Part shown: in pieces, positions 19,718 to 20,317 of the stretch | Numbering within the stretch: the first letter of the stretch is position 1 | How the letters are laid out: each line of letters starts with the position of its first letter | NCBI GenBank assembly: GCA_028700185.1 | Contig: JAQVTF010000004.1 | Location: 1-57,999 of the forward strand | Length of the DNA: 57,999 bases | Direction: 5' to 3' | From: Desulfobacteraceae bacterium | GTDB taxonomy: Bacteria > Desulfobacterota > Desulfobacteria > Desulfobacterales > UBA2174 | The notes under the pieces: model-generated | What the model was told of the DNA's origin: nothing | Databases searched by the model: none | Seen by the model: the letters and a program-made list of their open reading frames with translations, nothing else | Position numbers and translations under genes: made by a program

Positions 19718-19792
19718 TGGTAGGCACGGACAGGATTGAACTGTCGACCCCTACCGTGTCAGGGTAGTGCTCTCCCACTGAGCTACGTGCCT
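19718..19792 (-). tRNA. tRNA-Val(GAC)
   Basis: The 75-nt cloverleaf includes an encoded CCA. The acceptor stem AGGCACG pairs with CGTGCCT, and the D-arm is GCTC-AGTGGGA-GAGC. The anticodon stem CTACC/GGTAG encloses loop CTGACAC, giving anticodon GAC. The T-arm is GACAG-TTCAATC-CTGTC. All stems are fully paired. It has its own promoter upstream and terminator downstream. Confidence 0.97.
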
Positions 19793-19805
19793 TTATGAAC
19801 CCGGC

Positions 19806-19834
19806 TCTTTAGCATCCACCCACCGTCGTGTCAA
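19806..19834 (-). promoter_or_regulatory. Promoter of tRNA-Val
   Basis: On the minus strand, TTGACA (19829-19834), exactly 17 nt, then TAAAGA (19806-19811) sit 14 nt before the tRNA 5' end. The spacing fits a short tRNA leader. Confidence 0.65.
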
Positions 19835-19962
19835 GGCAAATAGCCATACCCCCCAGGGCCCCGTCAAGGTTTGGCGATGATCCCTTGGAGGGTTTTTCCG
19901 GTTTAGGCCATGCTCGCGTCTGTGTTCTCAACTGCAAATCCCTCGTCGCTGACGCTTTTTCT

Positions 19963-20006
19963 GAGTGACTAAAATTACGAGTGACTAACGGAGTGACTAA
20001 AATTAC
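19963..20006. repeat. Degenerate tandem GAGTGACTAA units
   Basis: Three diverged units lie in tandem: GAGTGACTAAAATTAC at 19963-19978, GAGTGACTAACG at 19979-19990 and GAGTGACTAAAATTAC at 19991-20006. They lead directly into the first 110-bp repeat, which starts with the same GAGTGACTAA. Confidence 0.8.
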
Positions 20007-20116
20007 GAGTGACTAAAGTGACTAAAGTGGTGGCGTCGCTGCGCTCCGGTTTTTATATAAATACCAGGATTCCTACACTTTAGCTCACTTTAGTCACTTT
20101 AGCTCACTTGACACTT
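20007..20116. repeat. 110-bp hairpin-forming repeat, copy 1
   Basis: The left arm is built from GTGACTAAA units. The right arm has their complement (CACTTTAGTCACTTTAG), giving a stem of about 17 bp or more. The loop of roughly 60 nt contains GTCGCTGCGCTCCGG, an AT-rich TTTTTATATAA block and CAGGATTCC. It has no coding capacity. The unit recurs almost unchanged 5 bp further on. Confidence 0.88.
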
Positions 20117-20121
20117 TTTTT

Positions 20122-20232
20122 GAGTGACTAAAGTGACTAAAGTGGTGGCGTCGCTGCGCTCCGGTTTTTTATATAACTGCCAGGATTCCTACACTTTAGC
20201 TCACTTTAGTCACTTTAGTTCACTTGACACTT
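20122..20232. repeat. 111-bp hairpin-forming repeat, copy 2
   Basis: This copy is nearly identical to the repeat at 20007-20116. The differences I can see are one extra T in the T-run, ATA to CTG after ATATAA, and C to T in the last TTAG(C/T)TCACTT. It lies in the same orientation and head to tail. The outer arms pair with each other and also with those of copy 1. It has the look of a MITE- or REP-like element rather than a gene. Confidence 0.88.
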
Positions 20233-20245
20233 GAATTTTCCCGTC

Positions 20246-20308
20246 TCATGCCCAACGTCGGTGAGGCATCCGCGGTTGTCATGCCGAGGACCGGCGAGGC
20301 ATCCGCGG
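20246..20308. repeat. Two direct copies of a 30-bp repeat
   Basis: 20246-20275 and 20279-20308 are direct copies with a few mismatches. They share TCATGCC at the left and GAGGCATCCGCGG at the right, with a period of 33 bp. They fill the space between the hairpin repeats and the end of the polyprenyl synthase gene. There are too few copies, and no spacers, for a CRISPR. Confidence 0.7.
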
Positions 20309-20317
20309 AAATGCCGG

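Follow-up and report, generated by a model that had tools for sequence, protein, structure and literature searches.

Two near-identical hairpins lie head to tail beside a tRNA-Val gene in a 57,999-nt stretch of a Desulfobacteraceae genome (contig JAQVTF010000004.1; the whole stretch is called the window here). The locus raises the question of what kind of sequence these hairpins represent and by what means they were copied. An earlier note, made from the sequence, had proposed a non-autonomous mobile element of the MITE/REP kind, or a structured RNA or DNA element.

Structure of the hairpin pair

The two units are found at 20007-20116 and 20122-20232, where the earlier note had placed them, with a start-to-start spacing of 115 nt (all hairpin and repeat coordinates are on the forward strand). 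They differ in four alignment columns, consisting of one inserted T and three substitutions. In unit 1, the left arm (20007-20029), made of AGTGACTAA words, pairs perfectly with 20086-20102. The core (20030-20075) consists of GTGGCGTCGCTGCGCTCCGG, which is the 5′ end of the element described below, and TTTTTATATAA...CAGGATTCCT, which is its 3′ end. The right arm (20076-20108) has the words in reverse, with CACTTTAG octamers at 20076, 20086 and 20095. In unit 2, the left arm (20122-20144) pairs perfectly with 20202-20219, the core spans 20145-20191, and the right arm (20192-20224) carries CACTTTAG octamers at 20192, 20202 and 20211. Stems of 17 bp or more within the units, and cross-pairing between them, had been predicted, and perfect inverted arms of 17-18 nt do pair in both ways. 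An additional stretch of left-arm words (GAGTGACTAAAATTAC..., twice) at 19963-20006, which had been described as degenerate single units, is real as judged by word positions and direct repeats. Such left words are part of the variable arm of the element. No arm words are present elsewhere in the 58-kb window, beyond the hairpin region 19963-20232.

An TGACACTT repeat at 20109-20116 forms the junction between the units and falls within the tandem period; in other arrays, units are also parted by an identical junction. The same sequence at the right edge (20225-20232) is a candidate target duplication or part of a larger outer repeat, neither of which is proven.

Both units are predicted to fold stably as RNA, unit 1 at -40.7 kcal/mol (z -6.45) and unit 2 at -44.8 kcal/mol (z -7.38), with none of 200 shuffles as good in either case. 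In a search of the window against Rfam, the tRNA alone reaches the gathering score, and cmscan finds no rRNA in the window. Weak miRNA matches at a permissive Rfam threshold were rejected as chance hairpin matches. The tRNA-Val gene (19718-19792, minus strand) is the sole tRNA gene of the window and lies ∼170 nt from the first word. Of 38 other loci of the repeat (34 in the same genome and four in a congener), only one has a tRNA gene in the few kb retrieved around it, and the tRNA neighbour thus looks incidental.

Copies and arm grammar

The source genome (G000) has 96 matches to the unit, copy numbers here being counts of search matches, and these are at dozens of places, single or arrayed. 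Matches are found in 65 of 194 genomes of the order and in dozens of families, the longer ones at roughly 75-85% identity. The earlier note had held that a unit confined to this locus would speak against its proposal; the unit is not unique. An alignment of 42 units drawn from many genera shows the core to be conserved, and some gene-bearing copies carry its halves at their ends. Other units display different or inverted cores inside the same arms. Three loci (L041, L077 and L394) have an inverted or unrelated core between the same arms, which suggests that cores flip or are replaced.

A 21-nt arm pattern matched at least 111 stretches in several phyla, where the chance expectation in that collection is below one by the author's estimate. 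Among the matches listed, the arm words AGTG(N1-2)CTAA are in genomes titled Desulfobacterota, Bacteroidota, Planctomycetota, Chlorobiota, Calditrichia, Chloroflexi, Poribacteria and others. Since most of these are metagenome-assembled genomes, an individual assignment could be in error; the titles of Hyunsoonleella jejuensis and a Colwellia do not mark them as such. A spacing grammar is common across phyla: CTAAAGT repeats are parted by 2 nt (GA, GC, rarely GT) or 3 nt (mostly GAG, GAA, GAT), or by 9 nt or more where a degenerate word is skipped, and spacings of 4-8 nt are never seen.

Two further observations concern arm length. Contigs of Bacteroidota, Calditrichia and Anammoxibacter (L168, L193, L216 and L219) carry long pure 9-nt arrays with AGTGCCTAA or AGTGACTAA many times over, as if arms expand by slippage. 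At one site with a gene-bearing copy that is common to two Planctomycetota genomes (L307 and L308), whole words are inserted in the left arm and the right arm is unchanged, so arm length changes word by word.

A partner gene

There is no open reading frame of the partner gene within the window hairpins. Clustering of open reading frames near arm words elsewhere, however, revealed a four-helix-bundle protein, termed hIVP here, which is encoded 0-38 nt from the words at four unrelated loci, including one in the source genome (C47) and one in Hyunsoonleella. It belongs to PF05635 (23S_rRNA_IVP/S23), with scores of 68.7-76 bits against a cut-off of 33.8, and matches TIGR02436 at 85-91 bits against a cut-off of 24; a relative of solved structure is 2rld. 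No nuclease or polymerase domain is recognised in hIVP, and Avd models give no match to it.

A profile for hIVP separates this subfamily from its paralogues, copies of useful length scoring at least 137 bits and paralogues at most 132. Two-sided arms were scored by a strict pattern that requires forward words in the 300 nt before the gene and reverse words in the 300 nt after it. They are found at 27 of 35 hIVP loci and at none of 39 paralogue loci. The eight exceptions comprise two loci cut by contig ends (L361, L309), three with variant words (L316, L354, L359) and three without words on one or both sides (L352, L315, L317). Conversely, 27 of 29 unique loops of 280-1800 nt from forward to reverse word hold hIVP, although this set is enriched because many loci were fetched via hIVP searches. 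The other two loops span unrelated genes, and no other cargo gene is found among the 29. A transposase with termini of this type, which the earlier note had suggested looking for, did not emerge, and the PF05635 gene is the sole cargo gene found. Distant paralogues alone (<60% identity) were found on plasmids and phages, which were therefore rejected as carriers.

A full copy consists of the hIVP gene with a forward word array before it and a reverse word array after it. Such copies sit between host protein genes, usually directly behind the stop codon of the upstream gene and in its orientation. The longest flanking open reading frame shares its strand with hIVP at 16 of 19 upstream flanks and 17 of 21 downstream flanks, as if hIVP is expressed by read-through. 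The hIVP reading frame is under purifying selection, with dN/dS of 0.04-0.14 in five pairs whose dS is partly saturated. Within the order the gene is patchy, being found in 18 of 194 genomes. Hairpins are present in 17 of these 18 genomes and in 48 of the 176 others (Fisher p 2e-8, uncorrected for shared ancestry). In the hIVP tree, sequences from Planctomycetota and Calditrichia fall among those from Desulfobacterota with moderate support, a pattern that points to transfer from one phylum to another.

Hairpins as probable derivatives of gene-bearing copies

Pieces of the hairpin core are found in gene-bearing copies. The piece GTCGCT(G/T)CGCTC continues the left arm in L073, L286 and L356, and the piece AGAATNC..AACTTTAG precedes the right arm in L346, L349, L356 and L361; L356 thus has both halves. 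By pattern, the two core halves are detected in seven and four, respectively, of 18 gene-bearing copies from Desulfobacterota. In other gene-bearing copies the arms adjoin the open reading frame, and the hairpin core therefore belongs to a sub-lineage.

From sequence comparison, the hairpins look like both ends of the element minus its open reading frame. As the same arms enclose hIVP, and in some copies the core halves, the window hairpins are best read as non-autonomous, ORF-less and tandemly duplicated copies of a hairpin-bounded element whose sole gene is hIVP. We give this reading a probability of about 0.72.

Empty and filled sites

Orthologous sites show that the element comes and goes. 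One two-gene junction was compared in four congeners: it is empty in G029, where the stop and start codons overlap, it carries a full hIVP element in G187, an ORF-less hairpin with an inverted core in G088, and arms only in G124. At the L344 site, G119 carries a full element and G083 no words. An hdr site has full elements in G000 and G001 and one lone word, a target or a scar, in G002, and the C15 site is empty in both congeners. At the C262 site, six units are present in G000, one in a congener and none in another. The recent duplication proposed in the earlier note fits these tandem arrays. Each of these differences could be a gain or a loss. No target duplication is seen at the g28 junction, and TGACACTT is present on both sides within the outer repeat.

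The outer repeat

The window units lie inside a larger palindromic repeat that belongs to this genus, at ∼19853-20275. Its left block (19853-19962) lies outside the element proper and recurs, with or without a hairpin, at many places in G000, G001 and G002; its right block (20233-20275) is a right flank common to other copies. The two blocks recur together, and several congeneric copies have no hairpin at all. This intergenic repeat has the form GGCCCCGTCAAAGTTTTGCGATCA...CTTTGACGGAGCCC with tandem CTCGGGATGACACGGGAG sub-units (also at G001 loci L375-L388), and some copies house hairpins. To the right of the hairpins, at 20246-20308, are two 30-nt direct repeats (TCATGCCCAACGTCGGTGAGGCATCCGCGG, 80% identical) that are related to the outer repeat.

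The TGACACTT sequence flanks the second window unit on both sides, marks the left edge of the hairpins in a congener, and is present once at that position in hairpin-free copies; the tandem pair in the window is most simply accounted for by unequal duplication. At the window site, both congeners (L334, L335) lack hairpins and have a gene of ∼0.6-1.2 kb between the tRNA-Val and polyprenyl synthetase genes. This gene is absent from the window (19793-20317), and the repeat region sits there instead.

These features bear on whether the hairpins now move by themselves. It may be that in this genus the element was inserted once into the outer repeat and was then copied passively with it, aided by unequal tandem recombination. 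The window copy and many others have both outer flanks in common, arrays share one junction, and the graded unit numbers at C262 are as such copying would leave them. However, hairpins also occur beyond the outer repeat, both in the source genome and in members of other families within the order. We regard passive copying as a real possibility, at somewhat less than even odds. It concerns present activity in this genus, not the identity of the hairpins, and can hold together with their derivation from an hIVP element; a large share of the copying here may belong to the outer repeat itself.

RNA layout and a proposed mode of spread

In RNA from a full element, the arms are predicted to pair over ∼40 bp and to enclose the open reading frame (z -7.54). 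G-U pairs are not favoured over A-C mismatches in stems (50 vs 62), and word identities between the arms match only loosely in alignments judged by eye, which argues against selection on one RNA strand. Relative to neighbouring genes, gene-less hairpins are antisense at 20 sites, sense at 15, convergent at eight and divergent at five, with no orientation bias over the 48 sites. The hIVP copies are mostly co-directional with their neighbours and gene-less hairpins show no such preference, as would fit if gene-bearing copies were kept chiefly at sites that allow their expression.

A host function for the word hairpins was considered, in which they would be a maintained RNA or DNA signal (mRNA 3′ end stability, attenuation or protein binding), with hIVP as the binding protein, and not selfish. 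The strict spacing grammar across phyla, the intergenic sites where neighbouring genes are co-directional in 35 of 48 cases, and the purifying selection on hIVP are compatible with such a role. It appears improbable, as sites are not conserved among congeners, gene-less hairpins have no preferred orientation, the G-U asymmetry is absent and hIVP has a patchy distribution. Similarly improbable is mobilisation in trans by an ordinary transposase (RAYT/Y1, IS200 or DDE) with hIVP as passenger or regulator. The repeats are indeed short, palindromic, dispersed and gene-less, and 36 of 40 relatives have Y1 genes. Against it, neither the unit nor two-sided words are found at any of 30 Y1-transposase loci examined in the order, Y1 presence does not separate hairpin carriers from non-carriers, and the arms enclose no other gene (DDE elements were searched non-exhaustively).

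The many copies, the presence and absence among congeners and the gene-bearing relative with the same arms uphold the non-autonomous mobile element of the earlier note; an affinity to REP/RAYT repeats is not borne out by the Y1 loci.

If the hairpins derive from an hIVP element, the following course may be proposed. The transcript of a host operon would fold into a long stem around the open reading frame, and RNase III would cut this stem much as it cuts the intervening sequences of 23S rRNA; the insertion would then do little harm. The hIVP protein may bind the word stem and help to form new copies. Gene-less hairpins would multiply using hIVP supplied by full copies, with further tandem duplication. 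Several points weigh against this explanation: the element has no catalytic enzyme, the core halves are detected in a minority of the Desulfobacterota gene-bearing copies, eight of 35 hIVP loci fall outside the strict arm pattern, the stems lack G-U asymmetry and their word identities match loosely, there is no clear target duplication, and in this genus the outer repeat may account for much of the copying.

Relation to known repeat elements

Intervening sequences (IVSs) of 23S rRNA genes that carry an S23p open reading frame are known in Coxiella burnetii and Leptospira, and in Coxiella they are excised by RNase III (PMC4990558). They have long been called selfish or mobile, with no mobility enzyme or mechanism known (PMC4990558). 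The present element resembles IVSs in its PF05635/S23 four-helix-bundle open reading frame and in ends whose complementarity gives a long RNA stem. It differs in that the copies examined lie between protein genes and not in the 23S rRNA gene, the arms are built of 9-10 nt words that follow one cross-phylum grammar, gene-less derivatives are present in high copy number, and the protein belongs to a distinct PF05635 subfamily.

As with MITEs, the hairpins are short, ORF-less and dispersed, with inverted ends, many copies and a gene-bearing parent. Unlike in MITEs, however, the hIVP parent has no transposase, the arms are variable word arrays and a target duplication is not established. The intergenic, tandem or clustered palindromes recall REP/BIME sequences with RAYT (PMC2817692), but there is no link to a Y1/RAYT gene, and unit structure and arm grammar differ. 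The folds of Avd, a protein of diversity-generating retroelements, and of PF05635 are reported to be homologous (PMC10053308); in contrast to Avd systems, the element has no reverse transcriptase, template or variable repeat.

One might speculate that these elements form a mobile class that has no transposase, recombinase or polymerase gene and is made up of a four-helix-bundle protein and palindromic word-array arms. Such a class would extend across bacterial phyla. Its spread might involve an RNA hairpin together with either host replication enzymes or a borrowed reverse transcriptase, and the intervening sequences of 23S rRNA would be one specialised branch of it. This broader proposal is tentative, and we rate it below even odds.

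No published arm word or intergenic PF05635 hairpin element was found in the open-access literature, and one may exist elsewhere; the interest of the present element lies in that no such intergenic element was found described. Four-helix-bundle proteins of PF05635 are widespread, and one subfamily is now linked to an intergenic element that is both defined and dispersed. Its strict arm grammar, its empty and filled orthologous sites and its gene-less derivatives make it possible to test what hIVP does and how a small element with no recognised transposase spreads within genomes and from phylum to phylum.
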